From: Calditrichota bacterium
Lineage (GTDB): Bacteria; Electryoneota; B3-LCP
Length of the DNA: 36,244 nt
Reading direction: 5' to 3'
Assembly: GCA_020051775.1 (NCBI GenBank)
Contig: JAGVQJ010000176.1
Coordinates: 1 to 36,244 of the forward strand
The notes beneath the pieces were generated by a model, which was not told the DNA's origin, ran no database searches, and worked only from the letters and a program-made list of their open reading frames with translations. How positions within the stretch are numbered: position 1 is the stretch's first letter; each line of letters begins with the position of its first letter. Shown here piece by piece: positions 2,061 to 17,816 of the stretch. The position numbers and the translations under genes were made by a program.

Positions 2061-2365
2061 TGAAGCAGACCCTGATTTTACTGACGATGGGATTATTTTT
2101 TTTAGCGGCCTGCGGAAAAGCGCCGGAAGTAATCCAAGGGGTAGTGACTGGCTACGATCCCGCCTCTAAAACCGTAATGCTGCAGGATGAGCAGGAACCG
2201 CATCGCGATCTTACCTTTTCGCTGCAACAGGCGGAAATTGGTGCAGAACCGGCGGTGGGAGACTCGGTGAGGCTTTCCTACCGCACTCAGGGGGAGACAC
2301 TCCTGGCTTTGCGGGTAATGAACCTGAGCCAACGCAGTGAATTACAGAAAAAGGGAAGTCACTAA
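2057..2365 (+). CDS. Small lipoprotein, third gene of the TauE operon
   Basis: A 102-residue protein with a lipoprotein signal peptide: MMKQTLILLTMGLFF followed by the lipobox LAAC (Cys19). The mature part, starting GKAPEVIQGVVTGYDPAS, is short and probably all-beta, with a GVVTGYDPASKTVML strand pair that resembles small OB-like periplasmic domains. I do not recognise a named family. It starts inside the TauE stop codon (ATGA overlap) with GGAG at 2048-2051, so it is translated with TauE and is probably a periplasm-facing partner of the exporter. Its stop codon overlaps the stop of the convergent gene on the other strand. Confidence 0.8.
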   Translation: MMKQTLILLTMGLFFLAACGKAPEVIQGVVTGYDPASKTVMLQDEQEPHRDLTFSLQQAEIGAEPAVGDSVRLSYRTQGETLLALRVMNLSQRSELQKKGSH

Positions 2366-4839
2366 AATTTGTCAAATTCGCCGGCCAGGAAGGCCTTGGC
2401 GAAGAATTCGGGGCTGCTGTCGGTGCGCATGAGCATATCCAATTGCCGGCAACAGAGTGTGATTCGCCCCAAATCCACCAAACGCTGCTGGGCTAACTCC
2501 CGATCGAGCTTTTCGAGCCGCGCGACGACGCCGTCGCCTCGGACCTGAACGCTGAAATGCAATGCCTTTAGCACCAGGGAGATGAATCGGCAGCGTCTCT
2601 CTCTGCGGACTTCGTCGGCTGCCCCGCCCTCAAACCGGAAGTGGATGTAATTCTTATTGACGTTTCTGCCACAGTAAGTATCCACGGTATTGAAGTGATA
2701 ACCGGCCTTGGTGCTGAAATTCATGTAGCGGTCGGATATCACCGCGAAAGAGGGTCGGCCTACACCCAGTTCTTCTGCGGGAAGCCCCGCAATACTTTCC
2801 CCCAACACTGAAAAGAAACCCCCTGCCGAAAGCGCCCGTGGCTGATTCCAACTGATGCGGTGATCTGAAAGCCCCGTCAGAAAGGAAATCGCCGGGGGCG
2901 AAACCACATCAGCCATGTTAATGCGCCGGTCATGGCTGGCCTGGTTGGATAACCCGCCGCCCAGATCGAAAACCAACACTCGAAAGGGGAGATTTTCTTC
3001 CAGGGTGGTTGAGGCCGGCTCCATGTTCAACGCCCGATCCCCAAAATAGAACATCACTTCGAAGAGCTTTTCGTGGATAAAACGGATAACGTCGTGCAAT
3101 GACTCTGCAGCAGAAGGCAGGAATTCCGGTGAATTGGCGTCCACCAGCTTCAGAGGGGTAATAAATTGCGCAATGCGCTTTAGCTTGGCCACCGCTGGTG
3201 AATTCACGATAGACTGCGCGTCATCAGGGCGGGCAGGCAGTTGTTGCAGACCTTCGAAGATTTGTAGGCCTCCCGTATCAACCGTTACTTCCAAACCCTG
3301 CGGTAATCGTAGTAAGGCGCCCTTTAATCCAACTATGGTTGGGACCTGAAACTCGCGAGCCAGTATCGCCATGTGCCCGATGGGGGAACCTTCTTCGGTG
3401 ATGATGGCGCTGCAATGATCCATAACCCGCGAATAGCGCGGCGAGGAGCGATGGGCGACCAGCACCGCGCCTTCTGGAAAACAATCCAGTTCGTTTTCAT
3501 CTTTCAAAACGAAAACTTTCCCGCATCCCACTCCAGGATAGGCTGTCGCCCCTCCCGCCAGAATTGCTTTCCGGACGCCCGCCTTTTCCGATATATTTAA
3601 GGCCGCCGGCTTCTTGATGAACACCATGGGGCGCGATTGTAAGACATTTATTCTGCCTCCCTGATCTATCGCCCATTCGACATCCTGTGGCGAACCAAAA
3701 TGAGCTTCCAGCTTGCGGGAAATGGCCGCCAGGGAGAGAGCCTCTTCCCGAGAAAGGCGCCGTAAGGGATCATCGCTCGTGATGATCCCCCTTGTAACCA
3801 GAACCTCTTCAGCATCTCCGGTTTCCGCAGAATCATCGCAGGCGGGGCCGACATAGGCGCTGATGACGGTCTTGTCCGCTTCAGGATCGTCGAAATATCG
3901 CGAGAACATCACACCCTGGCAACGGGATTTCACCATGCGGATACATCCGACGGCCATCAATGCGCTCGAATTGGATAACCCGTACATGTGCCGGTAACGG
4001 ACCGGGCCAGCTCCGTAGGCGCTGGCGACGACCCGACGGTAGGAGTCCAGCAGCGAAGCCTTGTCAACATTCAACTCGGTAGCGTACAATCCCGCATGGG
4101 ACGCTTCGCGGTCTTCTCCCAGACCGCTGCTGCGCACTGCAACTAAATCTTCACTATCGCCCATTAAGGACAGGTAGGCATTGGTTATCAAATTTTCCAG
4201 TTCCGTTGGCAGGGGAGTGACTGCGATTATTTCCTGCAATTCGCGACAGGCTTCTGACATGACTCGAGCGCCGAAGGTCTCGGTTAACTCTTCCAGTTTC
4301 TCGGCGCGATTGCCCAGTTCGGGGCGGTCCATAAATCCATTGAAAGCTGTGGCAGTGATGGCGAACCCATCCGGAACTTCCAGACCCATAACATTGCGGA
4401 TTTCCCCCAAGTTGGCCATCTTGTGACCGACAAGCGGAGCGTCGGTCTGGCGCAGGTCGGATAGTGGGATGATCAACGGTCCCGAAGGCGGGGCGGAAAA
4501 AGCAGCCAGGTGAAACTCGAAATCATGATTGATGCGGCGCATGCTATCGAACAGATCAAGATACCGTCCCCAGGCTAACTCGTTAAAATCCCGCACCATG
4601 ACATACACGTCCAGGATTCCCTTCCGCAGCAACCGCACCATGTGGTTGAAAGAGAAAGGGATCCGCCCGGAGAGGCGGTCATCAATATCAGCGATAAGTT
4701 GTAGCACGGAATCGTTGGTTGCCAGGATGTGGCGAAAAGTCTCATACATCTGGCGAAGGTGCTCGGCGTTATCAGTAGTGCTTATGACAACTTTCGCCTG
4801 GCGCCGCGCTGTGAGCCTTGCTTTGATTTTACGGATCAT
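2362..4839 (-). CDS. PEP synthase/PPDK-like protein with an unrecognised C-terminal domain
   Basis: An 825-residue cytoplasmic protein. Residues about 1-115 are an uncharacterised helical N-terminus. Residues about 130-405 are a PPDK-type ATP-grasp domain: GHKMANLGEI with Lys140, VAVRSSGLGED with Arg236, and LQSRPM at 400-405. Residues about 435-530 are the swivelling phosphohistidine domain, with GSPIGHMAILAREFQVP and catalytic-type His489. The C-terminal PEP/pyruvate-binding TIM barrel of true PEP synthase or PPDK is absent. Instead residues about 560-825 form a domain I do not recognise, with motifs such as VFDLGGGLSNQ and FEGGAADEVRRERR. It probably transfers phosphate from ATP through His489 to an unknown acceptor. 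It converges with the TauE operon. The ATG at 4837-4839 has no clear ribosome binding site, but a strong promoter lies just upstream. Confidence 0.8.
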   Translation of the reverse strand: MIRKIKARLTARRQAKVVISTTDNAEHLRQMYETFRHILATNDSVLQLIADIDDRLSGRIPFSFNHMVRLLRKGILDVYVMVRDFNELAWGRYLDLFDSMRRINHDFEFHLAAFSAPPSGPLIIPLSDLRQTDAPLVGHKMANLGEIRNVMGLEVPDGFAITATAFNGFMDRPELGNRAEKLEELTETFGARVMSEACRELQEIIAVTPLPTELENLITNAYLSLMGDSEDLVAVRSSGLGEDREASHAGLYATELNVDKASLLDSYRRVVASAYGAGPVRYRHMYGLSNSSALMAVGCIRMVKSRCQGVMFSRYFDDPEADKTVISAYVGPACDDSAETGDAEEVLVTRGIITSDDPLRRLSREEALSLAAISRKLEAHFGSPQDVEWAIDQGGRINVLQSRPMVFIKKPAALNISEKAGVRKAILAGGATAYPGVGCGKVFVLKDENELDCFPEGAVLVAHRSSPRYSRVMDHCSAIITEEGSPIGHMAILAREFQVPTIVGLKGALLRLPQGLEVTVDTGGLQIFEGLQQLPARPDDAQSIVNSPAVAKLKRIAQFITPLKLVDANSPEFLPSAAESLHDVIRFIHEKLFEVMFYFGDRALNMEPASTTLEENLPFRVLVFDLGGGLSNQASHDRRINMADVVSPPAISFLTGLSDHRISWNQPRALSAGGFFSVLGESIAGLPAEELGVGRPSFAVISDRYMNFSTKAGYHFNTVDTYCGRNVNKNYIHFRFEGGAADEVRRERRCRFISLVLKALHFSVQVRGDGVVARLEKLDRELAQQRLVDLGRITLCCRQLDMLMRTDSSPEFFAKAFLAGEFDKF

Positions 4840-5065: not shown

Positions 5066-6046
5066 TCATTTATCGTTTCTTAACCACCCTGCCACTTCAC
5101 CCGCATAATATGTCAGAATGAAATCCGCTCCGGCGCGTTTGAAGGCCAGGAGTGTCTCCAAGATGACTCGCTGGCGGTCAATCCAACCGTTGTGGGCAGC
5201 GGCTTCGATCATGGCGTATTCCCCCGAAACCTGGTAGGCCGCGGTTACGCGATTAAAGGTCGCTTTAACCAACGCCAGCACGTCCAAGTAGGCGATCCCC
5301 GGCTTGACCATGATCATATCGGCGCCTTCCTCTAAGTCCAACTCGGCTTCACGCAGCGCTTCCAGCGCATTGCCGGGATCCATCTGATAACTGCACCGAT
5401 CCCCGAACTGCGGGGTGGAACCGGCCGCGTCTCGAAAAGGGCCGTAAAATCCAGAAGCGTATTTCACGGCGTACGACAGGATGGCGGTCTCGTGGAATCC
5501 ATTCTCATCCAGCGTCCGCCGAATGGTTGCAACACGGCCATCCATCATGTCCGAAGGTGCGATGAGATCTGCTCCAGCTTGGGCGTGACTCAAGGCCGTT
5601 TTCGCCAGCAGTTTCAACGTAAGGTCGTTGGACACGTCGCCCTGAGAGATGACTCCGCAATGTCCATGGCTTGTGTATTCGCACAAGCAGACATCCGTTA
5701 TTACCAGTAGATTCGGCGCAGCTTGTTTGATAGCTTGCACAGCGCCCTGCACGACCCCCTCGTCGTTCCAAGCCGAACTGCCCGAATCGTCCTTATGTTC
5801 GGGGATGCCGAAGAGGATGACAGCGGGCACGCCCCAGTCAGCCAAACGAGCCGCTTCTTCTGCGGCTCTGTCAACCGAGAGCCGGTATTGCCCCGGCATG
5901 GAAGCGATTTCCCTGCGCACGTTCTGTCCCGACATTACGAACAGCGGTTGCACCAAATCGTCAACTGAGAGGCGGGTTTCGCGCACCATGCGGCGCAGGG
6001 TTTCGCTGCGTCTTAAGCGGCGTGGACGGTCAGTGGGAAAGCTCAT
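5066..6046 (-). CDS. hemB: Porphobilinogen synthase (5-aminolevulinate dehydratase)
   Basis: A 326-residue full-length HemB, which condenses two 5-aminolevulinates to porphobilinogen in the cytoplasm. The active-site Lys248 lies in [12 protein letters not shown] and the second active-site lysine is Lys195 in [20 protein letters not shown]. Cys120, Cys122 and Cys130 ([14 protein letters not shown]) form the three-cysteine zinc site, so this is the zinc-dependent type. The ATG at 6044-6046 has TGGAGA at 6056-6061. It is the last intact gene of hemC-hemD-hemB, 153 bp after hemD, and is followed at once by the hemL relic. The assignment is secure. Confidence 0.97.
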
Positions 6047-6199: not shown

Positions 6200-6940
6200 T
6201 TATTCAGTTATATTGGCTTTAAGAACTGCTGCTGTTACAGCCGCCGAATCAGGCCCGGCGCTGATGAAAATGTTTCCCGCTCCGATTTGGCGCAAAGCTT
6301 TGGCTGTTGACTCCCCGAAGGCTACACAAGCAAATGACCAGGGCGGCGGCCAAGCGGCGGCGAAGGCACTCACTGCGCTGGGAGCCGCGAACACGGCAAT
6401 ATTCCACGGTAGGTGTCGTTTCAACCGTAAGGAAAGGTCTTCAGGCGGAATTGCCACTGTGGTATAGCATTTCCAGGAAGTGACTTTGAGACCTCCGGCG
6501 ATCAGTATTTCTTTAAATTTTTCATCCGCTAACGATGAGCAAGCCCATAACAACGAATCGTCGGTCCGAAGGTTGGTTTTTTCAGTCAACCATCGTGCTA
6601 ATCCGATGGCGTTTGATTCGGGTCCGTGGACGACCGAGTCAAATATGTGTAATCGCTTCTCAAGTTCGGCAGCAGTAGCTATCCCAACAACTGCAAAGAG
6701 AATGTTGGTTGGTAATTCCAGTCTCTTCGCTTGCACAACGCTGGCGAAAGCGACTACGCCATGAACGCTGGTAAAAGCGATCCATGAGAACTCTCGCAAA
6801 TCAGGTAGAGGATTCTTCTGATGGAGATAAACTGTCTTTGTCACTGGTTCGACCAGAACGTCAATACCTTTTTCCACCAAAAGGTCAACCAATCCCCGCG
6901 CTCTCTCAGCGTCGCGTGTGATTAACACCCGAGCGCTCAT
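6200..6940 (-). CDS. hemD: Uroporphyrinogen-III synthase
   Basis: A 246-residue protein beginning MSARVLITRDAERARGLVDL, the usual start of HemD, which closes and inverts ring D of hydroxymethylbilane to give uroporphyrinogen III. Other family features are the two-domain length, WIAFTSVHGVVAF in the first domain (about residues 62-74), and AVFAAPSAVSAFAA with ACVAFGESTAKAL in the second. HemD diverges strongly, so position supports the call: it overlaps hemC by ATGA (6937-6940) and precedes hemB. The frame is open 39 codons further upstream inside hemC, but the ATG at 6938-6940 with GGGGAG just before it is the real start. Confidence 0.9.
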   Translation of the reverse strand: MSARVLITRDAERARGLVDLLVEKGIDVLVEPVTKTVYLHQKNPLPDLREFSWIAFTSVHGVVAFASVVQAKRLELPTNILFAVVGIATAAELEKRLHIFDSVVHGPESNAIGLARWLTEKTNLRTDDSLLWACSSLADEKFKEILIAGGLKVTSWKCYTTVAIPPEDLSLRLKRHLPWNIAVFAAPSAVSAFAAAWPPPWSFACVAFGESTAKALRQIGAGNIFISAGPDSAAVTAAVLKANITE

Positions 6941-7827
6941 GCACTCCCCTGGCTTAATTTGCCAAACAGGGCTTCGACAATTTCCGCAGGATCGTTCCCC
7001 ACGAAGCTGCTCCATACTGGTTTGCGGCCACCACCCCAGAATCCAAACGCATGCCAACTGTCGTTTTTAAAGCGAGCATAGACGCCCAGAGGTAATCCGC
7101 AACCGCCTCCAAAACGTCCCTGGACGGCCCGTTCAATGGTGGTTGCAGTAGCGGTAAGATTGTCATGCAGGGCGGTATGCACCGCTTGAAATTCGGGGGC
7201 CCCTTCCCGCATCTGAATAGCCAGCGCCCCTTGCCCCGGCGAGGGTATAAATCGCGATGGATCCATCCGTAATACAAAGTAACCCGACAAGTCGAGCTGT
7301 AGCCGGTTGACACCGGCCGCAGCCAGAAAAATTGAGTCATAGTGTCCTTTCGCCAACTTTGACAGTCGTGTGGGCACGTTGCCTCGCAGATCCTTCGACA
7401 CTATATCAGGCCGCATGGCTTTAAGCTGGGTTTCACGGCGCACTGCACTGGTGCCGACTACCGCACCGCCACGCAGGGGAATTTCGCCTTCTGTTTCGAG
7501 GTTGGATTCGGATCGGATGATCAAAAAGTCGGCGGGATCTTCTCGCTTTGAAACCGCCGCCAATGCTAAACCCTCTGGCGCCTTGGAAGGCATGTCCTTG
7601 AAGGAGTGCACCGCCACATCCACCGAACGATCCAGCAATGCCTCTTCGATTTCCTTAGTAAAATAACCCCTGCCTTCGAGCTCGCGCAAGGGCCGGTCGG
7701 TAATCCGGTCACCCTTGGTGCTGATAATCTTCAACTCAACCTGCCGCCCCATTTTTTGTCCTAGAACGGCGGCAACGTACATTGCTTGACACTTGGCTAA
7801 ATCGCTGCCTCTGGTGCCGATGATCAT
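6937..7827 (-). CDS. hemC: Hydroxymethylbilane synthase (porphobilinogen deaminase)
   Basis: A 296-residue HemC, which polymerises four porphobilinogens into hydroxymethylbilane. It begins MIIGTRGSDLAKCQA and has VAVHSFKDMP with catalytic Asp78, LRGNVPTRL at about 147-155, and GGGCGLPLGVYA with Cys243, the attachment site of the dipyrromethane cofactor. The ATG at 7825-7827 is chosen over one eight codons upstream because GGGGAG (7832-7837) precedes it and the family starts at this point. The stop overlaps hemD. No hemA lies upstream, where many clusters carry it; the next upstream gene is a tRNA. No strong promoter was found in 7828-8071, only an isolated TTGACT at 7964-7969. Confidence 0.96.
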   Translation of the reverse strand: MIIGTRGSDLAKCQAMYVAAVLGQKMGRQVELKIISTKGDRITDRPLRELEGRGYFTKEIEEALLDRSVDVAVHSFKDMPSKAPEGLALAAVSKREDPADFLIIRSESNLETEGEIPLRGGAVVGTSAVRRETQLKAMRPDIVSKDLRGNVPTRLSKLAKGHYDSIFLAAAGVNRLQLDLSGYFVLRMDPSRFIPSPGQGALAIQMREGAPEFQAVHTALHDNLTATATTIERAVQGRFGGGCGLPLGVYARFKNDSWHAFGFWGGGRKPVWSSFVGNDPAEIVEALFGKLSQGSA

Positions 7828-8071
7828 ACCTCTCCCCAAGAAGGTGAGCATGAATTTCGAAATGCGTCAATAAGGTAAACCCTGACTGGAAGCAGTTTGA
7901 TCCGAGGGGCGCTTGGAAATTAATATCGTACCACGCTATCAGCTAAACTTATCTTCATGACTCAGTCAAGCACTTTTTCGTAAATTTGATGCTGCTCAGC
8001 TCATTTGCTCCCCTCCTGAAGTGTCGCGCAAGCCCAATGCAACACCAATCCACCTCCCCCTTTAGATACGA

Positions 8072-8096
8072 AAATCCGCCTGTAATAGGCGGATTT
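8072..8096 (-). terminator. Terminator downstream of tRNA-Gln
   Basis: A perfect 10-bp stem (AAATCCGCCT / AGGCGGATTT) with a 5-nt loop. On the minus strand it starts 19 nt after the tRNA and ends in a short run of T. It probably ends the tRNA transcript before hemC. Confidence 0.75.
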
Positions 8097-8114
8097 CCAA
8101 AGGATTTAAGCTTG

Positions 8115-8185
8115 CTGGGATGCAGGGATTCGAACCCCGATACCATGATCCAGAGTCATGTGTCCTGCCGTTGGACGACATCCCA
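8115..8185 (-). tRNA. tRNA-Gln (anticodon CUG)
   Basis: The minus strand folds as a complete cloverleaf: acceptor stem TGGGATG/CATCCCA, D stem GTCC/GGAC, anticodon stem CATGA/TCATG with loop CTCTGGA giving anticodon CTG, and T stem CGGGG/CCCTG with loop TTCGAAT. The discriminator is G. The CCA tail is not encoded (the next bases are CAA), so it must be added after transcription. It has its own promoter and terminator. Confidence 0.95.
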
Positions 8186-8197
8186 GTATAACCTTGC

Positions 8198-8226
8198 AAT
8201 ATAAGGAATTAAACCGCTTTTGTCAA
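8198..8226 (-). promoter_or_regulatory. Consensus promoter of tRNA-Gln
   Basis: TTGACA (8221-8226), a 17-bp spacer and TATATT (8198-8203), with the -10 box 13 bp from the tRNA 5' end. This pins down the -10 preference of the housekeeping sigma factor in this genome. Confidence 0.8.
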
Positions 8227-8246
8227 GGGGGTATGGTCACAATTAT

Positions 8247-9032
8247 TTATGGCTGCAATCGCCGTACGGCCAACAGCGCTGCGCCCAAAGCTCCCACAAA
8301 CTGCGGCTGCGGAGGGACCAGAACTTTCACCCCTAAAACCTCTTCCAAGGATCGCACCATCGCCGCATTTTGTCCGACGCCTCCGCTAAATCCCAGGTCA
8401 GCTTCCACGCCCAAACCTTCTGCCATGCGCACGACTCTGGCAGCGATAGCGTTATGCAGGCCACGCGCGATCTCATTCATCTCACGACCTTCCGCCAGCA
8501 GGCTGATTGCCTCGGATTCCGCAAACACTGTGCACATACTGGAAATCCTCGCCGCAGATTTGGCCGTCAACGCCTGTTCAATGAACATATCAAGCGGTAA
8601 ATCCAACCCTTGAGCAGTCATTTCCAGGAATTTCCCCGTTCCGGCAGCGCAACGATCATTCATGGCAAAATCCAACACCAAGCCACCCTCATCCAAGCGG
8701 ATTACTTTGGAATCCTGCCCGCCGATATCAATCAATGTGCGCACGCCCGGTAAATGAAAGGCAATGCCTCGCGCGTGACAGGCGATTTCAGTGAACTGTT
8801 CATCGGCTATTTCGGTTACAGCGCTGTGAATGCGACCATAGCCCGTCGCAACGATGCGTTGTACTTGCACTCGATCCAAATTCGCCGTCATAAGCGCATC
8901 CGCCAGGGTTTCCCGCGCCATCGCCGAAGGCAGCCATCCAGTTTTCGCCAGTGCCATTCCTACGATCTGGCTGTCGCGTAAGATCAACGCCTTGGTCGTA
9001 CGTGAACCGATATCCAATCCGGCGGTAATCAT
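8247..9032 (-). CDS. BadF/BadG/HgdC-type ATPase, [4Fe-4S] activator
   Basis: A 261-residue ASKHA-fold ATPase of the family that reductively activates 2-hydroxyacyl-CoA dehydratases, benzoyl-CoA reductases and some corrinoid enzymes. It begins MITAGLDIGSRTTKALIL (phosphate-1 loop) and has DIGGQDSKVI at 102-111 and GFSGGVGQNAAMV at 214-226. Cys128 (NDRCAAGTG) and Cys167 (SSMCTVFAESE) are the two ligands that let a dimer hold one shared [4Fe-4S] cluster. It starts inside the stop of the upstream UroD-like gene (ATGA, 9029-9032), so translation is coupled. No dehydratase subunit of the HgdAB type lies beside it, so the UroD-like neighbour is the likeliest partner (inference). Confidence 0.92.
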   Translation of the reverse strand: MITAGLDIGSRTTKALILRDSQIVGMALAKTGWLPSAMARETLADALMTANLDRVQVQRIVATGYGRIHSAVTEIADEQFTEIACHARGIAFHLPGVRTLIDIGGQDSKVIRLDEGGLVLDFAMNDRCAAGTGKFLEMTAQGLDLPLDMFIEQALTAKSAARISSMCTVFAESEAISLLAEGREMNEIARGLHNAIAARVVRMAEGLGVEADLGFSGGVGQNAAMVRSLEEVLGVKVLVPPQPQFVGALGAALLAVRRLQP

Positions 9033-10093
9033 AATTCCTCGGCCCAATATCGCCCAAGTTTCCGGCCTTCTTCCACAAACGCCAGCACGTTTTCCTGCGG
9101 CGCCAGGATGGGGACTTCGCAGCCCGTTGACAGCACAAATCCCTTGGGATTGTCCTTACCCGCAGCCATTATATCGGCTACTTTTCTCCGGATAGTACCA
9201 GGATCATCTTGCAAGAGATCCGTAGGCCGAAGGTTGCCGATAATGCGCGTCCGAGCGCCGATATTATTACGGCATAAAGACATAGGGATGTCATCGCAGG
9301 AAAACAGATCGCATTGCGTCTTGAGGATCCCCTCTAATATCGGTTCACTGCGTCCACAGATATGCAGGAATACGTCGAAATCGCTGCGGTGAAGATGATC
9401 GCTGAAGGTTCGCAAATAGGGTTCGGCGAAATCGTGAAAGACCTGCGGCGAGATCACCGAAGCAGACGCCAACGGGTCCACCAGCATGGGGACAGCGCCC
9501 GCGTCAATGCACAAGTCAGTGAAGGCCAGAGCCGCCCGCAGACTCAAATCCAGCAGACTATGACAGGCCGCAGGATCCAACAAGGTATCCACCAGGAAAT
9601 CTTCGGTGCCGCGCAGCAGTGCTGCCGTCGTAAACGGAGCCGGGATGAACACCATGACCGGAGTCACGTCGCCGACCTCACGTTGGCAGGAGGCAATGGC
9701 GTCTATATAGACCGAATACCGTCCGGGAAGGCTCTCGGCGTCGGGAAGTTTTAGATCTTGCCACGCTACACCGGAATCCAGGGCGGGCTGTTGTAATACA
9801 GGTACGTCATCGTCGCGAAAGAACAATTTCGATCCCAGCGCTTCTGCCACCATTCCCACGTCGGAGAAGATCGAGACGGCGTCGTGCTTGTATCGCCGCA
9901 GAGCCGCAACCTGTGCTCGCGCCATGGCTTTGCCGTCGGTAACATACTCCAGCAGACCCATACCGGCTACGGCGGCGGCGTGCGAACTGACCAGTGGATA
10001 CACCACGACGCGGTCGGGGATCTCGTCAATCAGCAGCAGCGACATGCGCTGGCGGGAGTTCAATGGTTCGTAGCGGTAGAAGGATTGGTTCAT
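9029..10093 (-). CDS. UroD-superfamily methyltransferase-like protein (MtaA/MtbA type)
   Basis: A 354-residue TIM-barrel protein of the uroporphyrinogen decarboxylase superfamily. The N-terminal arginine motif (RQAGR) of true HemE is absent. The zinc ligands of the corrinoid:thiol methyltransferases are present: His244 and Cys246 in FLHICGRSEPILEG, and Cys325 in VLSTGCEVPILAPQENV. It therefore more likely moves a methyl group between a corrinoid and a thiol than decarboxylates a porphyrin, despite lying near hem genes. The ATG at 10093 is preferred; the frame is open another 40 codons, but those residues look non-coding. The ribosome binding site is poor: the nearest AGGA is 17 bp away. It is coupled to the BadF-type ATPase downstream. 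Confidence 0.85.
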   Translation of the reverse strand: MNQSFYRYEPLNSRQRMSLLLIDEIPDRVVVYPLVSSHAAAVAGMGLLEYVTDGKAMARAQVAALRRYKHDAVSIFSDVGMVAEALGSKLFFRDDDVPVLQQPALDSGVAWQDLKLPDAESLPGRYSVYIDAIASCQREVGDVTPVMVFIPAPFTTAALLRGTEDFLVDTLLDPAACHSLLDLSLRAALAFTDLCIDAGAVPMLVDPLASASVISPQVFHDFAEPYLRTFSDHLHRSDFDVFLHICGRSEPILEGILKTQCDLFSCDDIPMSLCRNNIGARTRIIGNLRPTDLLQDDPGTIRRKVADIMAAGKDNPKGFVLSTGCEVPILAPQENVLAFVEEGRKLGRYWAEEL

Positions 10094-10342: not shown

Positions 10343-12706
10343 CTACTTCATAAGGACCATCTTACCTGTAGCGGAATACGACCCAGCTTGCAGGGTGTAG
10401 AGATACACGCCCGAAGACAGGTTCGATCCGTCGAAGGTGACCTGGTGCTGGCCGGCTTCACGCAGACCGTTGACCAGGGTGGCGACCAAGCGGCCCTGCA
10501 CGTCGAAGACGTTCAGGGTCACTTGGACCACTTCCGGCAGAGAGAAGCTTAAAGTAGTGGCCGGATTGAATGGGTTGGGATTGGCGCCTACCATGGCAAA
10601 GGTGGCCGGAGCCGAAATCATGATCTCACCGGGGAATGGTTCACCGGAGCAGAGGTTATCCCACACCATCGGACCGCCGTTGGCAACGGCTGTCTTCGTG
10701 AAAGTGAAGAAGCTGCTGTCAATGGCCGGGTAAGTGAATGTAGTGTTAACGTAACCCAGGTATGTGGTTACTCCGGCCGGATGGGAGGCGGCGATATTCT
10801 GGTTACGCAATCGAGTGATGGTCGTTCCCACGGGCGGATTGATCTGCACCGGGCCTAAGGTGGGATTGCTGTAGGTGCCGTTGGGGTACTTCATGCGGGC
10901 CCAACCATAGAAGTATGCTTGCGGGCCGGTGGTGCGCTGCACGGCAGCGTTGAACTGAAAGCTGCCACCGTTTGCCGGAATAACGATAGGCGGATTTTGC
11001 GGAGTCATAATCACTACGATTGGCGGCGTGTCACTTTCGAAATAATCCAAGATATTATAGAGGATCCCGCGTGAGATCAAGGTGTCAACCGTGGCCTCCA
11101 GAATCCAGGGCAGGAAGACCATCTTATACGCGCTCTCGTAGCGGATACCCGCGGATTCGTAATCAATCTGAGTGCGGAAACAGGTTGCCGCACCCAACCT
11201 GGGATTGGCGAAGTCGTTGTAGTTGGGACTGGGTCGGTTATGGAAATACTCCGTCGCATAAGGAGCTGAAACAGGATCACCGAGCACACCAATGTACATC
11301 GTGTCATTTGATTCGCCGGTTGAGAAGTTTAAGTGCGAATCCGACCAGCCATTCAATACGTGCAGGTATTCGTACATAAACGTACCTGGTGGAGCTATAA
11401 ACTCTGTCCAGACACCGGAACCACCGAAGGCGCCGCCCAGATAGTCCGAACTGGACAGAAAGAAATGTCCTCCGCCATCCATGAAGTTGGCCACGGGATC
11501 GAGGTGTAGATTGGCATTATTTTTCGGGAGTGTGCCACTATTGGCCTCGCCGGTAAACCACAACACCTTGGAGTAGATATTGGGATTTACAACGTCCGAG
11601 CCGGGATAGCCCTGATCACCCGGTTCGCCGGGGCGAATCACCCAGAGGTCAAATGCAAAGATTCCTTGATTCAGGCAGTTTGTGTAAAAGCTCTGATGAC
11701 TGTTTTCTGCTCCATCGTTAACCAGTAGTATGGAGGCTCCGCTGGGCTGAAGGTAGGAAAATTGATACCCTCCATCGTGAGGTGCTATGGTTGTATGACC
11801 GCTACTATCTTGAGCCACAACCCTGTAATTGATGATGGTCCAAGTTGCCACACTCGGTATCGCCCCTTGATAAGTTGAATCTGAAATGTGAGTCATGGGG
11901 ACTTCAACCCAGGGCCCGTTGTTCACGGAATAGTGCAAATTCGCCTGTGTTATTTGCCCTTGTCCACCACCTTGGCTATGATCAGTTATAAAAGCGCTGA
12001 TGACGTAGGGGCCTGGGGTATAGGTATCCGAACGATCTACCAAGCCGGAAATAGTCGGCGGTGGATCACCGTACAGGTTCACCTGGGCTCGGATCATCCA
12101 GTCAATACCGTAAGCATACCAGCCGGGCTGGGTACTATAAAGCCCACCGGGAGTAGTCAGGTAGGCAAGGCTATGATAGGGTCGCTCATCGCCTGCATCG
12201 CCTAAGAGTGAAGGGTAAAAGGGTTGCTGCCCGCCGCCCGTCAGGACATATCCGAGATAGAACTTGCGAGTTCCGACGTCCATCTCATCCGGAGTGAAAC
12301 CATAAGTGCTGAAGTTGAGGGACTGCCAGGTCCCGCTGTTGTCGAAATTGTACGGAATAGGCCCGGCAATAACAGTATCCAGCAGTGTGGGGCCGGGACC
12401 GCCGCCAGGTTCATCATTGTCGTAATAATTATCGGGATCGAATGTGCGGACCAATCCCCAGACATAAACCAGCCCTGGTCCGCCCATGTCATTATTGAAC
12501 ATGAAGCGCCCCTGTAGGATTTGCGCTTCCGTGGGTGGTTCGAACCAGACACCGCAGGTGTCTCCGGGATCGGGGCGGCCGGAATAGTACGCGGTAGTAC
12601 CATCATCGTACTGAAGCCAGACAACTTGTTGCGCAAAGAGGGGAGAAATCAAGGCGATCGGGAGAACTGTGATCACGGCCAGGAAGGAAGCGCGAGGGGA
12701 AAGCAT
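10343..12706 (-). CDS. Large exported protein with C-terminal sorting domain
   Basis: A 787-residue protein with a signal peptide (MLSPRASFLAVITVLPIALI, cleavage probably after LFA|QQ). The middle holds an Ig-like stretch (about residues 215-330) and a region starting ASILLVNDGAENSHQSFY and containing VLWFTGEANSG. This resembles the ThuA/GATase-like folds in exported proteins of FCB bacteria, but no catalytic residues can be assigned. Residues about 563-787 are an NPPIVIPA-GGSFQFN Ig-like domain followed by a T9SS-type sorting domain (ANPNPFNPATTLSFSLPE ... SSGVYLYTL). The ATG at 12704-12706 with GGAGG six bases upstream is preferred over an in-frame start 17 codons earlier. The C-terminal part is nearly identical to that of the neighbour at 12959. 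Confidence 0.85.
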   Translation of the reverse strand: MLSPRASFLAVITVLPIALISPLFAQQVVWLQYDDGTTAYYSGRPDPGDTCGVWFEPPTEAQILQGRFMFNNDMGGPGLVYVWGLVRTFDPDNYYDNDEPGGGPGPTLLDTVIAGPIPYNFDNSGTWQSLNFSTYGFTPDEMDVGTRKFYLGYVLTGGGQQPFYPSLLGDAGDERPYHSLAYLTTPGGLYSTQPGWYAYGIDWMIRAQVNLYGDPPPTISGLVDRSDTYTPGPYVISAFITDHSQGGGQGQITQANLHYSVNNGPWVEVPMTHISDSTYQGAIPSVATWTIINYRVVAQDSSGHTTIAPHDGGYQFSYLQPSGASILLVNDGAENSHQSFYTNCLNQGIFAFDLWVIRPGEPGDQGYPGSDVVNPNIYSKVLWFTGEANSGTLPKNNANLHLDPVANFMDGGGHFFLSSSDYLGGAFGGSGVWTEFIAPPGTFMYEYLHVLNGWSDSHLNFSTGESNDTMYIGVLGDPVSAPYATEYFHNRPSPNYNDFANPRLGAATCFRTQIDYESAGIRYESAYKMVFLPWILEATVDTLISRGILYNILDYFESDTPPIVVIMTPQNPPIVIPANGGSFQFNAAVQRTTGPQAYFYGWARMKYPNGTYSNPTLGPVQINPPVGTTITRLRNQNIAASHPAGVTTYLGYVNTTFTYPAIDSSFFTFTKTAVANGGPMVWDNLCSGEPFPGEIMISAPATFAMVGANPNPFNPATTLSFSLPEVVQVTLNVFDVQGRLVATLVNGLREAGQHQVTFDGSNLSSGVYLYTLQAGSYSATGKMVLMK

Positions 12707-12815
12707 AATAACCTCCACATGGAACCGGGTGAGTATTAACAGAAGCCAAAGCGTCATGCTTTAGCAAGAGCTTGCAGGACGATTGAGATCGGATTAAAAG
12801 GACGTATTAGACTAC

Positions 12816-12844
12816 AATATAGGTAGAAAAATGCTCAGAAGCAA
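12816..12844 (-). promoter_or_regulatory. Promoter of the exported protein gene at 12706
   Basis: TTGCTT (12839-12844), a 17-bp spacer and TATATT (12816-12821), giving a leader of about 100 nt. Confidence 0.6.
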
Positions 12845-12884
12845 GTGCAATAAATTGCGTATTCAACAATATGTAAAATAAATA

Positions 12885-12907
12885 GGAGCGACCCATCGGA
12901 TCGCCCC
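12885..12907 (-). terminator. Terminator after the 947-residue protein gene, possibly bidirectional
   Basis: Stem GGAGCGA / TCGCCCC with one mismatch and a 9-nt loop. It is followed by TATTTATTTT on the minus strand and by TTTTT on the plus strand. Confidence 0.55.
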
Positions 12908-12919
12908 TTTTTGTTTCAG

Positions 12920-12943
12920 CGCAAGATCGTGTAGCATCTTGCG
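12920..12943 (-). repeat. 3'-UTR hairpin shared by the twin exported protein genes
   Basis: CGCAAGAT / ATCTTGCG, an 8-bp perfect stem with an 8-nt loop, 15 bp after the stop codon. The twin gene has CGCAAAC / GTTTGTG at the equivalent place (about 10307-10330), so the stem is kept although the sequence differs. Confidence 0.5.
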
Positions 12944-12958
12944 TAAAGAGTAGCGCAG

Positions 12959-15802
12959 CTACTTCATCAGCACCATCTTACCCGTGGCGGAATACGATCC
13001 GGCGGTCAGGGTGTACAGATACACGCCTGAAGAGAGGTTCGATCCGTCGAAGGTGACCTGGTGCTGGCCGGCTTCACGCAGGCCGTTGACCAGGGTGGCG
13101 ACCAGGCGGCCCTGCACGTCGAAGACGTTCAGAGTCACGCGGGCCACTTCCGGCAGAGAGAAGCTTAAAGTAGTGGCCGGATTGAACGGGTTGGGATTGG
13201 CGCCCACCATCGCGAAGCTGGCCGGAGCCGAAACCATGATCTCGCCTGGGAACGGTTCGCCTGAGCAGAGGTTATCCCACACCATCGGACCGCCGTTGGC
13301 AACGGCTGTCTTCGTGAAAGTGAAGAAGCTGCTGTCAATGGCCGGGTAGACCTGCGAAGCGGTGTTGGCATAGCCCAGGTATGTGGTTACACCGGCCGGA
13401 TGGGAGGCGGCGATATTCTGATTGCGCAACCGGGTGATGGTGGCGCCCACCGGCGGATTGATCTGCACCGGGCCTAAGGTTGGGCCGCTGTAGGTTCCGT
13501 TGGGGTATTTCATGCGAGCCCAGACGTAGAAGGGAGCCTGCGGCCCTACGGTACGGACTACTGTGGCATTGAATTGGAAGCTGCCGCCACCCGCCGGAAT
13601 GACGATGGGCGGATTGACCGGCGTCAAGGTGACGTCCAGGGCGGGTGCTGCAGTGGAGGTGTTGAACACCGCGCGAGCGAAGAAGTCGTAATCAGACGCC
13701 GTCATTCCGCTGCCGAAATTGGCGAAGAAATGACCAGCGCCATTGACGATGTCATCGCCCAGAATGTGCGCGCTGGAGGTATCAATCATTTCGTAGAATA
13801 CCCAGAAGTCGGTGTGGGTATTCTGCAGGTAGGAAACACCCGTCAGGGAGAATTGCTGCCAGTTCGGTGTGACCGAAGTAACATTGGCGGTAAAGTTGGT
13901 CACTTCCGGGCCGGGTGTGGTGGCCGTGCCGGGCTGGTAGATATGGATGCGGATAGAACCCGCGTCCATGAATCTCGCCCGCAAGTACTGAGCGTTCATG
14001 TTGAAGTTGCAACCGTCGGCTGTGGGTGTGTACTTAACGTAGGCGCCTTCGCCCGGGTCAAAGTTGAAGTAGTAATTGCTCTCATACCCGTACTGGCGGT
14101 TGTCGTAACCGAATTCAAAGACGTTGGCTGCCGTCAGTTCAACCGTACCGGCCTTGGCGCTGTCGTTGGTATGGAGCATATCCGAAGTCAGCGCAGTCCA
14201 GGAGTCGAAGTAGTAGTTACCGACAGCGGGGGTGACCCAGTTAAAGGTCTTGGTTACAAACTGCCCAGCATTGATCGAAGCCCAGGGAATCAGCGGAGTA
14301 CCCGTGCCGTAATTGACGCGCCAGAAAGCCGGAACCATGGGTTCGTTGTTGGTGCCGAAATTGTGCAGACGCACCGAGCAATGAATGGTGTCGAAATAGA
14401 CCGAAGTTGGCATGGGAACCAACAAGTTCTTGGCGCCCACGTCATGGGCCAAACCGGCTATCGAGTAAACCCGGAAATTGTCAATCATCATGCCGTAGCC
14501 GAGGTAGTTGTCCGGATCGGCCTGGAAATAAACACGAATCTTGATGTTGTATCCGGCATAATCCGACACGTCCACACCATTGGTCATGCCCGACCAAACT
14601 CCCAGCGAATCCCAACCGACGGGTAAGCTGGAGAATACATAGTGCAGAGCGCCCTGATTCCAGGGATCGTTCCAGTTGTACCAATGTACGCCGTTATCCG
14701 GGGAGACTTCGATGGTCCAGATATCCAGATCCGGGAAGGGTTGCGGATCGCCAACATTGATGTTGCCATGATGGAAGAACATGGCATAGATGTCGGCCGA
14801 ACCCGGTTGAATGCCCGTTAGGTTGATGTTGGGTGAAACGATCGCGCAATAGGTCATGGGCAAATAGCTGTTCTGGGCATTGGCCATCCAAGCGACATGA
14901 GTCGGCGAAGGAGGCGTGGGATATGGAGCGCCGATGGCGGCTACGTGCCAGAAATTACCCACCGGGGTCATAGCCGGTGTGGGAATCATCTGGCTGGGGA
15001 CGGCGATGCCTTCCGCGTTGTTCTGCAGTAGGGTCGTAACACCCGCCTGGATCAGCACGTTATCCACAAACATGCCGCGCAGAGTGGAGTCCTGAGCGGT
15101 GCTGTAAGCCGGGTCGGAGCACATGGCGAAGCGAATCTTCACCTGAGCATTGCCGACGTAAGCCGACAAGCTCTTGCTGGCGTTAACCCAAGCTCCGGGG
15201 GAAACGCCGCCCGAATATCCACCCCAACCGGCGATGCCGGGGCCCATGCCGAATTCATACCCGAAGGCATAGGAACTGGTCATGTTGTAAGCGGGGGTGG
15301 GACTGGGCAGAACCGACCAAGTGGAACCGTTATTGGTGGAAATCCAAATGTTGCAGGCGTCCCAGCCGTCGTACGGGGGTGTGGCGCCGGGTGGGGTTTC
15401 CACAGAATGGAACAGGTTGAACGTCAGCGTGGGATTGACCGCGCCGACTAAGCTGAACGTAGGGCTGACGAGGTATTCCAAAGTGTGGTCGCGATACCCC
15501 ATGATGGTGGTGTCGCCTGACCACCAGGACAGCGTGCTGCCGCCGCCGGTGTAATGATTGTAATCATCAATGTGCCAGAGGGCGGGGGCGTCGGTCAAGT
15601 CCACGAAGGTCCAGCCGGGCGCGCCCGATTCGAAGTTTTCAAAGAAGATGATGCTGTCGGTCTCGTCAATCGCCGGATCCGGAGTTGCCGGGATGGCGGC
15701 TGCGCGAGTCGCGAGGGGGGTGAAAGTACCGACAGTGTTGGCTAAAGCCTGAGTTCCAAACAGCAAACCCAGACAGAGCATAAAGAATACTGTCTTTCGC
15801 AT
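12959..15802 (-). CDS. Large exported protein with MAM-like repeats and C-terminal sorting domain
   Basis: A 947-residue protein with a signal peptide (MRKTVFFMLCLGLLFGTQALA). Two beta-rich units of the kind seen in immune-inhibitor-A/MAM-like domains follow: one with FFENFESGAPGWTFVDLTD and LEYLVSPTFSL near residues 53-115, and a second near 290-440 with YWYNWNDP-like and MMIDNFRVYS elements. A CARDB-like stretch (VGAKNLLVPMPTSVYF) comes next, and a C-terminal 225-residue block almost identical to that of the gene at 10343, ending in the T9SS-type sorting domain. No catalytic site was seen, so an adhesin or structural surface role is likeliest. The ATG has AGGAGG nine bases upstream, a strong site. 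The gene has a long leader. Confidence 0.88.
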   Translation of the reverse strand: MRKTVFFMLCLGLLFGTQALANTVGTFTPLATRAAAIPATPDPAIDETDSIIFFENFESGAPGWTFVDLTDAPALWHIDDYNHYTGGGSTLSWWSGDTTIMGYRDHTLEYLVSPTFSLVGAVNPTLTFNLFHSVETPPGATPPYDGWDACNIWISTNNGSTWSVLPSPTPAYNMTSSYAFGYEFGMGPGIAGWGGYSGGVSPGAWVNASKSLSAYVGNAQVKIRFAMCSDPAYSTAQDSTLRGMFVDNVLIQAGVTTLLQNNAEGIAVPSQMIPTPAMTPVGNFWHVAAIGAPYPTPPSPTHVAWMANAQNSYLPMTYCAIVSPNINLTGIQPGSADIYAMFFHHGNINVGDPQPFPDLDIWTIEVSPDNGVHWYNWNDPWNQGALHYVFSSLPVGWDSLGVWSGMTNGVDVSDYAGYNIKIRVYFQADPDNYLGYGMMIDNFRVYSIAGLAHDVGAKNLLVPMPTSVYFDTIHCSVRLHNFGTNNEPMVPAFWRVNYGTGTPLIPWASINAGQFVTKTFNWVTPAVGNYYFDSWTALTSDMLHTNDSAKAGTVELTAANVFEFGYDNRQYGYESNYYFNFDPGEGAYVKYTPTADGCNFNMNAQYLRARFMDAGSIRIHIYQPGTATTPGPEVTNFTANVTSVTPNWQQFSLTGVSYLQNTHTDFWVFYEMIDTSSAHILGDDIVNGAGHFFANFGSGMTASDYDFFARAVFNTSTAAPALDVTLTPVNPPIVIPAGGGSFQFNATVVRTVGPQAPFYVWARMKYPNGTYSGPTLGPVQINPPVGATITRLRNQNIAASHPAGVTTYLGYANTASQVYPAIDSSFFTFTKTAVANGGPMVWDNLCSGEPFPGEIMVSAPASFAMVGANPNPFNPATTLSFSLPEVARVTLNVFDVQGRLVATLVNGLREAGQHQVTFDGSNLSSGVYLYTLTAGSYSATGKMVLMK

Positions 15803-16052
15803 CGTGAGCTTCCTCCTTTAGGTTTGGGTTGTGACGAAAAATGAGCATGCTCTATATTTGAACGAGAATTGGATGTGCGGGACGCACCATTTTGCGCGTA
15901 CCAGTCGCATCACCGGAGATTGGCCTCCCGTGATGGGGTTGATTGAACTTTACGGGATGTGTAGATACAGAAGTTATCCGGAAAGCGGCAGGGTTTTGCC
16001 GGTGGTGTTATGTTTCACGTCAACCGTGCTGTGATCGCCTCCAGGAGCAACT
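15803..16052 (-). promoter_or_regulatory. Long 5' leader with several hairpins, candidate structured RNA
   Basis: This is the 350-bp gap between two exported protein genes, mostly the transcribed leader of the gene at 15802. On the minus strand it contains an 11-bp stem with one mismatch and a 6-nt loop (CATCACGGGAG / CTCCGGTGATG, 15908-15935), a GTGCG/CGCAC hairpin, a CGGCA/TGCCG hairpin, and a CCCGT that could pair with the ACGGG of the main stem as an alternative fold. It ends in a strong ribosome binding site. No known riboswitch class was recognised, and the small ORFs crossing it look non-coding. Confidence 0.45.
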
Positions 16053-16058
16053 GATTAG

Positions 16059-16087
16059 AATATACATAAAATATGCGTAAAAGTCAA
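16059..16087 (-). promoter_or_regulatory. Promoter of the gene at 15802
   Basis: TTGACT (16082-16087), a 17-bp spacer and TATATT (16059-16064), about 255 bp ahead of the start codon. Confidence 0.65.
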
Positions 16088-16154
16088 GCTCAATCTTGCG
16101 AGGATCTCCATTTGGGGCATGATTGCCTTTAATAATCTCCGATCTTTCGCGATA

Positions 16155-17816
16155 TTATCGCACCACCACCGCTTTCTTCACTGCCACCTGCTCGCCTGCC
16201 TGCAATTGAAGGAAGTATACTCCCGCCGGCAACGAGCTTTGATCGAGGCGTATAGCGTGTTGGCCGTCCGTTTTGTATCCCTCTTCTAATACTGACATTC
16301 TGCGTCCCAAGAGGTCATAAAGTTCCAATTTGATTTGTCCAGCTTTCGGTAAGGTGTAGTTCATCCCATTGAAAGATAAGCCGGAAACCACCGATTGGGG
16401 TTGAGGCATGATTTTGGAGGGTGTGCCTAAACTGCCGTCGGCATTGACTCGCTGGGCGGAAATGTCAATACCGGTAGTGGTTCCAAAACGAACGTCTTCA
16501 AGAGCAACTACGGCTCCGTCATTTCCATCTGAAGTAGCGACCCGGGGACCGATAATAGGTCCGCCGCCGGGAGTTTCCCCACCGATGGCCACAAGGCTTT
16601 GCCAGACCAGATTACCGCTATTGTCAACGCGATAAGCCTTGACACGGGTTATATCCGGATTCGGGGTATAGGTAAAATCAAGGAGCAGGCTGATCATGCC
16701 CTCGGCAACGGGTACCAAAATACCTCCATAAGGACGTCCATTAGGCGAAAATAATAGATTACCGTCAAGATCCCAGCGGTACAAACGATCCACAAAATTT
16801 TCTGATTCCCAGAGCCAGATTGATCCCTCCACGGGGTGGCGTAACAGGTTGCCATATCCGTGTTCGTTGAAATTAGGACTGGTCCAGAGCCAGCGTACCC
16901 GATAGTGCCCGCCAGAGTATGAAATCCGCATCACCTTGAAGTAATTATTGTAACCGGAAGTGTTCCAGGTCCAAACGCCTCCGCCCCGGCCGTCCGAAAC
17001 GCCTTCCTGCAATCCCCCGGCGCTGATTTGGAAGTTATTGTAGAGAATGGGCGTCCCATTCAATTCCAGCATGGGGAGGCCGTCCGGGTCAAGATGCTGA
17101 GTGTAAAGTTTGTAATTGTTGGCCAGGGAGCGGTCGTCTTGCCAGACCACGATCAGGCCACCTGAATTGTCGGCTACAATTTGCGGATAGGCTTGATTGT
17201 GTGATTCAACGCTCACCGCCACGCCGTATTCGCCCCATAGGCGCTGTCCATCTCGGTTAAATTTCTGCGCGTAGAGATCAGCGTTGCTGCCGGAGACTTG
17301 CATGCCCCAAACGAAGAAAAAATTCCCCGCTGAATCTCCCACCAAATCCTGCAGCACCATGTCTTGGGTTCCGGGCCAAACGGCAAGCGGCACGCCCGTG
17401 GATCCCCACTGGGGGTCGCCCTGGCTGTTGAAGCGTTGGCCGTAAATGTTCTCGACGCCATTGCGGTCATCGCCAAATATCACGATGGCGCCGCCCTGAG
17501 AATCAGATATTGCAGAGTACACACCGTACGTCCAGGACGCCTCAATGACATTTTGCCCGGTCGGACCGAGCAAGGGATTGCCCCGTTGATCCAACACCTG
17601 GTATTTTGAATGTGATCCATTGTAGGGTCGATCCCAGACAATGAAAGTAGATCCTGAAGACAGCCCGACAACTAAAGGATCAACATCTGACCCTGTTTCG
17701 TTGGTTACTATGGCCATCCCCTCCACCGGGTCGTTGGTCCAACCCCAGGCGTGTGCCGGGCATGGCGCGGCCAGCCACGCGGCGGCCAGCAGCAGTATTA
17801 GGGTAGTGGTTTTCAT
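16155..17816 (-). CDS. Exported repeat protein with C-terminal sorting domain
   Basis: A 553-residue protein with a signal peptide (MKTTTLILLLAAAWLAAP, cleavage near AHA|WGW). The body is built of repeated blades with the pattern D-x-R-N/S...IYGQRFNSQGDPQWG, seen near residues 115-150, 210-245 and again near 435-465 (EDVRFGTTTG ... SAQRVNADGS). This is typical of propeller-like exported proteins in FCB bacteria. The last 80 residues are a sorting domain (LPKAGQIKLELYDLLGRRM ... SSLPAGVYFLQLQAGE, ending KKAVVVR). No enzyme motif was seen. There is no clear ribosome binding site before the ATG at 17814-17816, but a perfect promoter lies about 120 bp upstream. Confidence 0.85.
   Translation of the reverse strand: MKTTTLILLLAAAWLAAPCPAHAWGWTNDPVEGMAIVTNETGSDVDPLVVGLSSGSTFIVWDRPYNGSHSKYQVLDQRGNPLLGPTGQNVIEASWTYGVYSAISDSQGGAIVIFGDDRNGVENIYGQRFNSQGDPQWGSTGVPLAVWPGTQDMVLQDLVGDSAGNFFFVWGMQVSGSNADLYAQKFNRDGQRLWGEYGVAVSVESHNQAYPQIVADNSGGLIVVWQDDRSLANNYKLYTQHLDPDGLPMLELNGTPILYNNFQISAGGLQEGVSDGRGGGVWTWNTSGYNNYFKVMRISYSGGHYRVRWLWTSPNFNEHGYGNLLRHPVEGSIWLWESENFVDRLYRWDLDGNLLFSPNGRPYGGILVPVAEGMISLLLDFTYTPNPDITRVKAYRVDNSGNLVWQSLVAIGGETPGGGPIIGPRVATSDGNDGAVVALEDVRFGTTTGIDISAQRVNADGSLGTPSKIMPQPQSVVSGLSFNGMNYTLPKAGQIKLELYDLLGRRMSVLEEGYKTDGQHAIRLDQSSLPAGVYFLQLQAGEQVAVKKAVVVR

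Follow-up and report, generated by a model that had tools for sequence, protein, structure and literature searches.

A UroD-fold zinc methyltransferase and a BadF-type activase encoded together in a Calditrichota genome are probably parts of a dispersed system of corrinoid methyl transfer and HGD-D-type reduction

Two overlapping genes on the reverse strand of the window (the whole 36,244-nucleotide stretch analyzed here) encode a zinc-type methyltransferase of the UroD superfamily (UroD1) and a BadF-type activase. With a probability of roughly 70%, which covers the mechanism proposed below, they belong to an eight- or nine-gene, two-module system whose operon was dispersed in this lineage. 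This assignment builds on gene content, gene order, co-occurrence, metal-ligand residues, and protein folds. In related bacteria, the genes form a co-directional operon in the order SAM-methyltransferase, EamA, corrinoid protein, UroD2, RACo, HgdB2, HgdA5, UroD1, and BadF, where HgdB2 and HgdA5 are the names given here to the two PF06050 (HGD-D) genes.

In several relatives, a search of 61 genomes located another UroD gene at a distance of 2-5 kb from the UroD1 ortholog. The operon order is conserved in 13 relatives, with MAG labels that include Calditrichaeota, LCP-89, Ca. Tariuqbacter, WOR-3, and Planctomycetota; a scan of a second contig collection found the same gene order in WOR-3 (L074) and Planctomycetota (L077 and L078) MAGs. 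UroD1 and BadF are adjacent at every locus and form the 3' end of the operon in relatives, and HgdA5, UroD1, and BadF are consecutive, often with overlapping ends, in 13 of the 13 distinct operon-bearing loci. The SAM-methyltransferase, which is closest to sarcosine/dimethylglycine and phosphoethanolamine methyltransferases, is a constant and highly conserved member of the operon, and the half-size EamA transporter is a frequent one. RACo is missing from the operon at two loci (L047 and L080), with a 58% identical copy elsewhere in the genome that contains L047 (G005). No CoA ligase is encoded in the operon. The sequence-only reading had taken the methyltransferase for the sole partner of BadF and proposed that the pair could be minimal and self-contained. 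Neither holds: in all 13 operon-bearing relatives, the gene directly upstream of the UroD1 ortholog belongs to the HGD-D family, and the pair ends a larger operon; homologs of both HGD-D genes are found elsewhere in the window genome.

Directly 3' of the operon in L074 (10816-13691) and L080 (10253-12983) lies an ABC transporter with an NMT1-like binding protein that shows weak similarity to SsuA/SaoX and a conserved CC motif. We rejected this transporter as an obligate part of the system: its gene occurs in 4 of the 10 genomes with the operon and 5 of the 51 without it, and the window genome lacks it. Further downstream in L074, YedF and SelD are encoded; as an indication of a selenium link, this arrangement was dismissed as a single case. 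A link to selenium through SelD itself was likewise rejected, given that nearly all members of the phylum encode SelD whether or not they have the operon, so that it does not discriminate. The SelD match in the window genome (contig C151) contains one in-frame TGA, likely a selenocysteine codon.

The window genome (G000) encodes two URO-D proteins, neither of which is HemE, four BadF-family proteins, and four HGD-D proteins. Homologs of all operon components are present in this genome but are spread over six contigs: UroD1-BadF on C178 (the window); EamA, the corrinoid protein, and UroD2 on C130; HgdA5 on C77 (47% identity with its operon counterparts); HgdB2 on C132 (L014; 34%); a RACo-like gene on C152 (32%); and the SAM-methyltransferase on C86 (67%). 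Thus, the search for corrinoid proteins and HgdAB subunits elsewhere in the genome, which the sequence-only reading had recommended, located homologs of both (C130, and C77 and C132, respectively). Being only 32-34% identical, the HgdB2 and RACo-like copies could be paralogs. On C132 (8033-9518), HgdB2 overlaps the final part of a gene for a HypA-like protein of nickel hydrogenase maturation.

Because each piece sits among unrelated genes, the dispersal does not result from assembly breakage. The genome of the nearest relative, G002, is likewise dispersed. In both genomes, UroD1-BadF stands alone at one locus, HgdA5 has the same lon and OsmC-like neighbors, and the gene for the SAM-methyltransferase lies beside, and divergent from, the same PduO-type cob(I)alamin adenosyltransferase-like gene (L106 on C86 of G000, 6662-8550; L107 on C61 of G002, 475-2181). 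These shared neighborhoods imply that the break-up of the operon is older than the split between the two genomes. G002 encodes a single RACo, of a general type also present in G001, and no operon-type RACo. RACo and HgdB2 are thus the least secure elements of the case for a dispersed system.

That the parts were kept after dispersal is the strongest argument for their joint function. UroD1 and the larger HGD-D subunit, HgdA5, occur in exactly the same 10 of the 61 genomes (10/10 versus 0/51; Fisher p = 1.1e-11, uncorrected for relatedness), and UroD1, HgdA5, and the SAM-methyltransferase are all missing from G001, which belongs to the same family. A wider search detected HgdA5 in 10 of 386 genomes, all within this phylum, the WOR-3 and Planctomycetota cases coming from the other collection.

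UroD1 (9029..10093, reverse strand; ATG at 10093 and TGA stop at 9029) is a 354-aa MtaA-like protein that matches the Pfam URO-D profile with 226.8 bits. Among the NCBIfam models, it scores highest with MtaA/CmuA (TIGR01463, 149.0 bits), followed by methylcobalamin:CoM methyltransferase (138.3 bits), MtaA (107.0 bits), hemE (83.4 bits), and MtbA (82.3 bits). All these scores, including that of the top match, are below the curated cut-offs (235.4 bits for TIGR01463, 400 bits for MtaA, and 302.95 bits for hemE), so that UroD1 is MtaA-like but falls outside each named subfamily. A hemE score above those of MtaA/MtbA would have spoken against the sequence-only reading; the hemE model scores below both MtaA/CmuA and MtaA and is level with MtbA.

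The His-x-Cys...Cys zinc site noted from the sequence alone is well supported. The predicted ligands, His244 (codon at 9362..9364), Cys246 (9356..9358), and Cys325 (9119..9121; all on the reverse strand), are invariant in 14 of 14 aligned UroD1 and UroD2 proteins (10 orthologs and 4 paralogs) and line up with the HxC...C residues of MtaA (4ay7), His244 with the LHIC motif and Cys325 with the cysteine of PGCG. The AlphaFold2 model of UroD1 (pLDDT 85) has MtaA (4ay7/4ay8) as its top fold match in the PDB, with TM-scores of 0.84-0.88, and the HemE structures rank behind. UroD1 thus combines, by its residues and modeled fold, the His-x-Cys...Cys site and the UroD fold that characterize MtaA/CmuA methyltransferases, although no coenzyme M pathway, to which MtaA belongs, was identified here. 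The identity to MtaA is 29% over 213 aligned residues and 23-24% over the full structural alignment, which brackets the threshold of >25% identity to a characterized SCMT that defines Mlp proteins (PMC10418091). Taken together, these features support the prediction that UroD1 is a zinc-type corrinoid:thiol methyltransferase rather than HemE.

The stop codon of UroD1 overlaps the start of BadF by 4 bp (ATGA, 9029..9032, reverse strand), as had been noticed in the sequence, and this arrangement indicates translational coupling. BadF (8247..9032, reverse strand; ATG at 9032, stop at 8247) is a BadF/HgdC-type ATP-dependent activase of 261 aa that matches the Pfam BcrAD_BadFG profile with 191.6 bits and TIGR00241 (CoA_E_activ) with 255.3 bits, twice the cut-off of 125.4. 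Both predicted [4Fe-4S] ligands, already recognized from the sequence, are invariant in 10 of 10 sequences: Cys128 (codon at 8649..8651) and Cys167 (8532..8534), numbered from the ATG at 9032 and corresponding to Cys125 and Cys164 in the trimmed alignment. BadF thus has the profile score and the two cluster cysteines of a BadF/HgdC-type activase. Its relatives in the PDB are MbdQ, HadI, HgdC, DCCP-R, and MbdP, all of which serve HGD-D-type partners. RACo domains are absent from BadF according to the Pfam search.

The remaining operon genes fall into two modules. In the methyl-transfer module, the corrinoid protein carries a DFHDIGKN (DxHxxG) motif and matches MttC/MtaC structures, the activator has the RACo domains PF14574, PF17651, and Fer2, and UroD2 and UroD1 are two predicted His-Cys-Cys zinc-type enzymes. 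The presence of the corrinoid protein gene in the operon of relatives, with a homolog on C130, backs the proposal of the sequence-only reading that the pair works with such a protein. The closest published relatives of this system are the mlp gene clusters, which have been tied to methyl-selenium or methyl-sulfur metabolism and among whose products one Mlp2 was measured to methylate selenide (Kountz & Balskus 2023; PMC10418091). As far as tested, the operons of relatives (L048, L049, L050, L051, L074, L077, and L078) show the general features by which mlp clusters were defined in that work. Like these clusters, they encode two or more UroD-fold methyltransferases of the MtaA-like kind, each with a His-Cys-Cys zinc site, along with one corrinoid protein and a RACo/Ram activator on the same strand. 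No tetrahydrofolate methylase, whose absence within 20 kb is one of the general criteria for mlp clusters, was seen in the operon flanks read (<20 kb per side). Some published mlp clusters also contain DCCP and its reductase (PMC10418091). The system described here differs in that its reductase is a two-gene heteromer (HgdA5-HgdB2), the SAM-methyltransferase is constant and the half-size EamA transporter frequent, and it is hosted by MAGs of the FCB group, WOR-3, and Planctomycetota. The window genome itself has no mlp cluster by these standards, its components being dispersed over six contigs amid unrelated genes.

The second module comprises BadF and the two HGD-D subunits. HgdB2, the smaller one, has DCCP and BzdN as its top PDB matches. 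In a profile alignment, the six ligands of the [8Fe-9S] cluster of BzdN (Cys36/73/100/263/293/327; PMC11971306) map to HgdB2 columns that are all cysteine in 9 of 12 sequences, including that of the window genome. Accordingly, HgdB2 probably carries a double-cubane [8Fe-9S] cluster. Some of the six cysteines are missing from the WOR-3 and Planctomycetota proteins, and the double cubane is therefore not universal. HgdA5 contains three invariant cysteines and adopts a fold resembling DCCP, BzdO, and HadB. We compared it with the catalytic features of BzdO, namely, the three cysteines that bind its [4Fe-4S]-OH2 cluster (Cys95/128/380; PMC11971306) along with Glu65 and His131. The alignment is weak, with low similarity, an offset of three residues at the third cysteine, and no conservation of the His131 position; HgdA5 is probably the catalytic [4Fe-4S] subunit.

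This module resembles the class I benzoyl-CoA reductases BzdNOPQ and MbdONPQ in combining an HGD-D heterodimer with a BadF-type activase and, in the 9 of 12 HgdB2 sequences, in retaining the [8Fe-9S] cysteines of BzdN. Unlike those enzymes, it includes one activase gene instead of two, its HgdA5 resembles BzdO very little in sequence and lacks a conserved histidine at the aligned acid/base position, and it is linked to corrinoid methyl transfer rather than to aromatic-CoA genes. DCCP:DCCP-R (6eno and 7yyl), which also has a single activase, is the nearest match of known structure, for HgdB2 in sequence and for HgdA5 in fold. DCCP is a homodimer, however; the present system has two genes, and the double-cubane set of cysteines is found in just one of them.

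From residues and homology, we infer the following loading of zinc and corrinoid, methyl flow, and electron path from BadF through HgdB2 to HgdA5. In the first module, RACo would keep the corrinoid protein active by re-reducing the corrinoid, and UroD2 and UroD1 would methylate and demethylate the cobalt, at least one of these steps involving a thiol or selenol. In the second module, BadF, probably a homodimer, would hydrolyze ATP to drive single electrons into the BzdN/DCCP-like HgdB2, which would store them and hand them on to HgdA5. The latter would then perform a very-low-potential reduction on a substrate or product of the methyl-transfer module. Speculatively, the system acts on a methylated compound of sulfur or selenium. 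A more specific version, to which we give only tentative credence, is that corrinoid methyl transfer is obligately coupled to a BCR-like double-cubane reductase that cleaves, for example, a C-S or C-Se bond of the compound that the zinc enzymes (de)methylate; at the same tentative level, such coupled cleavage would be the non-nitrogenase counterpart of the MarHDK system found near some mlp clusters.

Alternatively, BadF-HgdAB could be a second, high-power activator that reduces the corrinoid, or its substrate complex, instead of a separate organic substrate and thereby backs up or replaces RACo. The absence of RACo from the operon at L047 and L080 (offset in G005 by the 58% identical copy), the lack of an operon-type RACo in G002, and the potentials below -600 mV that BCR-type modules attain (PMC11971306) are compatible with this role. 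Nevertheless, RACo is otherwise retained in the operon, and the cysteines typical of a catalytic subunit are preserved in HgdA5. Furthermore, the targets of DCCP and BzdNO are small molecules or CoA esters. On balance, we consider a second activator unlikely.

Still less probable is a CoA-ester dehydratase or aryl-CoA reductase whose clustering with corrinoid genes reflects an O-demethylation pathway for aromatic or hydroxy acids. Membership in the HGD-D family and the occurrence of UroD-fold O-demethylases in anaerobes (PMC10418091) would fit such a pathway, but the operon lacks a CoA ligase, and His-Cys-Cys zinc ligands favor S or Se over O (PMC10418091). Moreover, the genome already contains what looks like a bzd-type benzoyl-CoA reductase pathway with its own activases, consisting of a locus on C59 (L011, 460-7966) with two BadF-family genes, a ferredoxin-like gene, a large Fe-S oxidoreductase, an alcohol dehydrogenase, and an acyl-CoA dehydrogenase, and an HGD-D gene pair on the short contig C168 (L012, 2-2727). 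Given these dedicated activases, we rejected the BadF pair on C59 as a sign that the BadF of the window serves benzoyl-CoA reductase.

The notion that UroD1 and BadF suffice by themselves, with BadF reductively activating the corrinoid for UroD1, is consistent with the translational coupling, the strict adjacency of the two genes at every locus, and their isolation in G000 and G002. We nevertheless find it very unlikely. The linkage of the activase to HgdAB subunits in relatives, which had been named beforehand as an observation that would count against it, is found in all operon-bearing relatives, and the HGD-D genes co-occur with the pair in 10 of 10 genomes. The operon also carries RACo, the standard dedicated corrinoid activator, so BadF, itself devoid of RACo domains, need not activate the corrinoid. 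A direct action of BadF on the methyltransferase reaction is not supported.

We return to the proposed two-module system and the surroundings of the pair in the window. Downstream lie hemC (6937-7851), hemD (~6200-6937), and hemB (5066-6046), with a tRNA-Gln gene (8114-8185) between them and the pair. The proximity to heme genes pointed out in the sequence-only reading is thus real in the window but is not conserved in G002, the nearest relative: no hemBCD homologs were found in the loci around the UroD1/BadF orthologs, G002 included. We therefore rejected a functional tie. The proximity is incidental, considering its lack of conservation, the intervening tRNA gene, and the presence of SUMT on C186, which offers uroporphyrinogen III another fate and by which it could go to siroheme or corrinoids. 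The N-terminal arginine motif of HemE, RxPVWxMRQAGR, is absent from UroD1, as the sequence-only reading had stated; the N-terminus reads DRVVVYPLVSSHAA. No HemE was found in the window genome, although hemB, hemC, and hemD are present in the window. That UroD1 is a divergent HemE serving the adjacent hemC, hemD, and hemB in a genome without any other HemE is thus barely credible in view of the hemE score of 83 bits against a cut-off of 303, the invariant zinc ligands, the missing MRQAGR motif, the lack of heme adjacency in G002 and other relatives, and the alternative fate provided by SUMT.

Elsewhere in the window, three large secreted proteins are encoded in tandem upstream of the pair (10343-17816), two with near-identical C-terminal sorting-type tails and the third matching the Por secretion tail family. 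An 825-aa protein (2362-4839) contains PPDK_N and PEP-utilizer mobile domains and scores far below the PEP synthase cut-off.

The gene set is rare (10 of the 386 genomes searched). A lone UroD-BadF pair can be one piece of a larger system whose genes lie dispersed, and inferring function from the immediate neighbors is misleading here; a UroD gene of this type that adjoins hemBCD should not be named hemE. To our knowledge, BzdNO is the only case in which the physiological substrate of a double-cubane protein is settled. The link between corrinoid methyl transfer and a heteromeric reductase that is probably of the double-cubane type provides a testable context for such a substrate.
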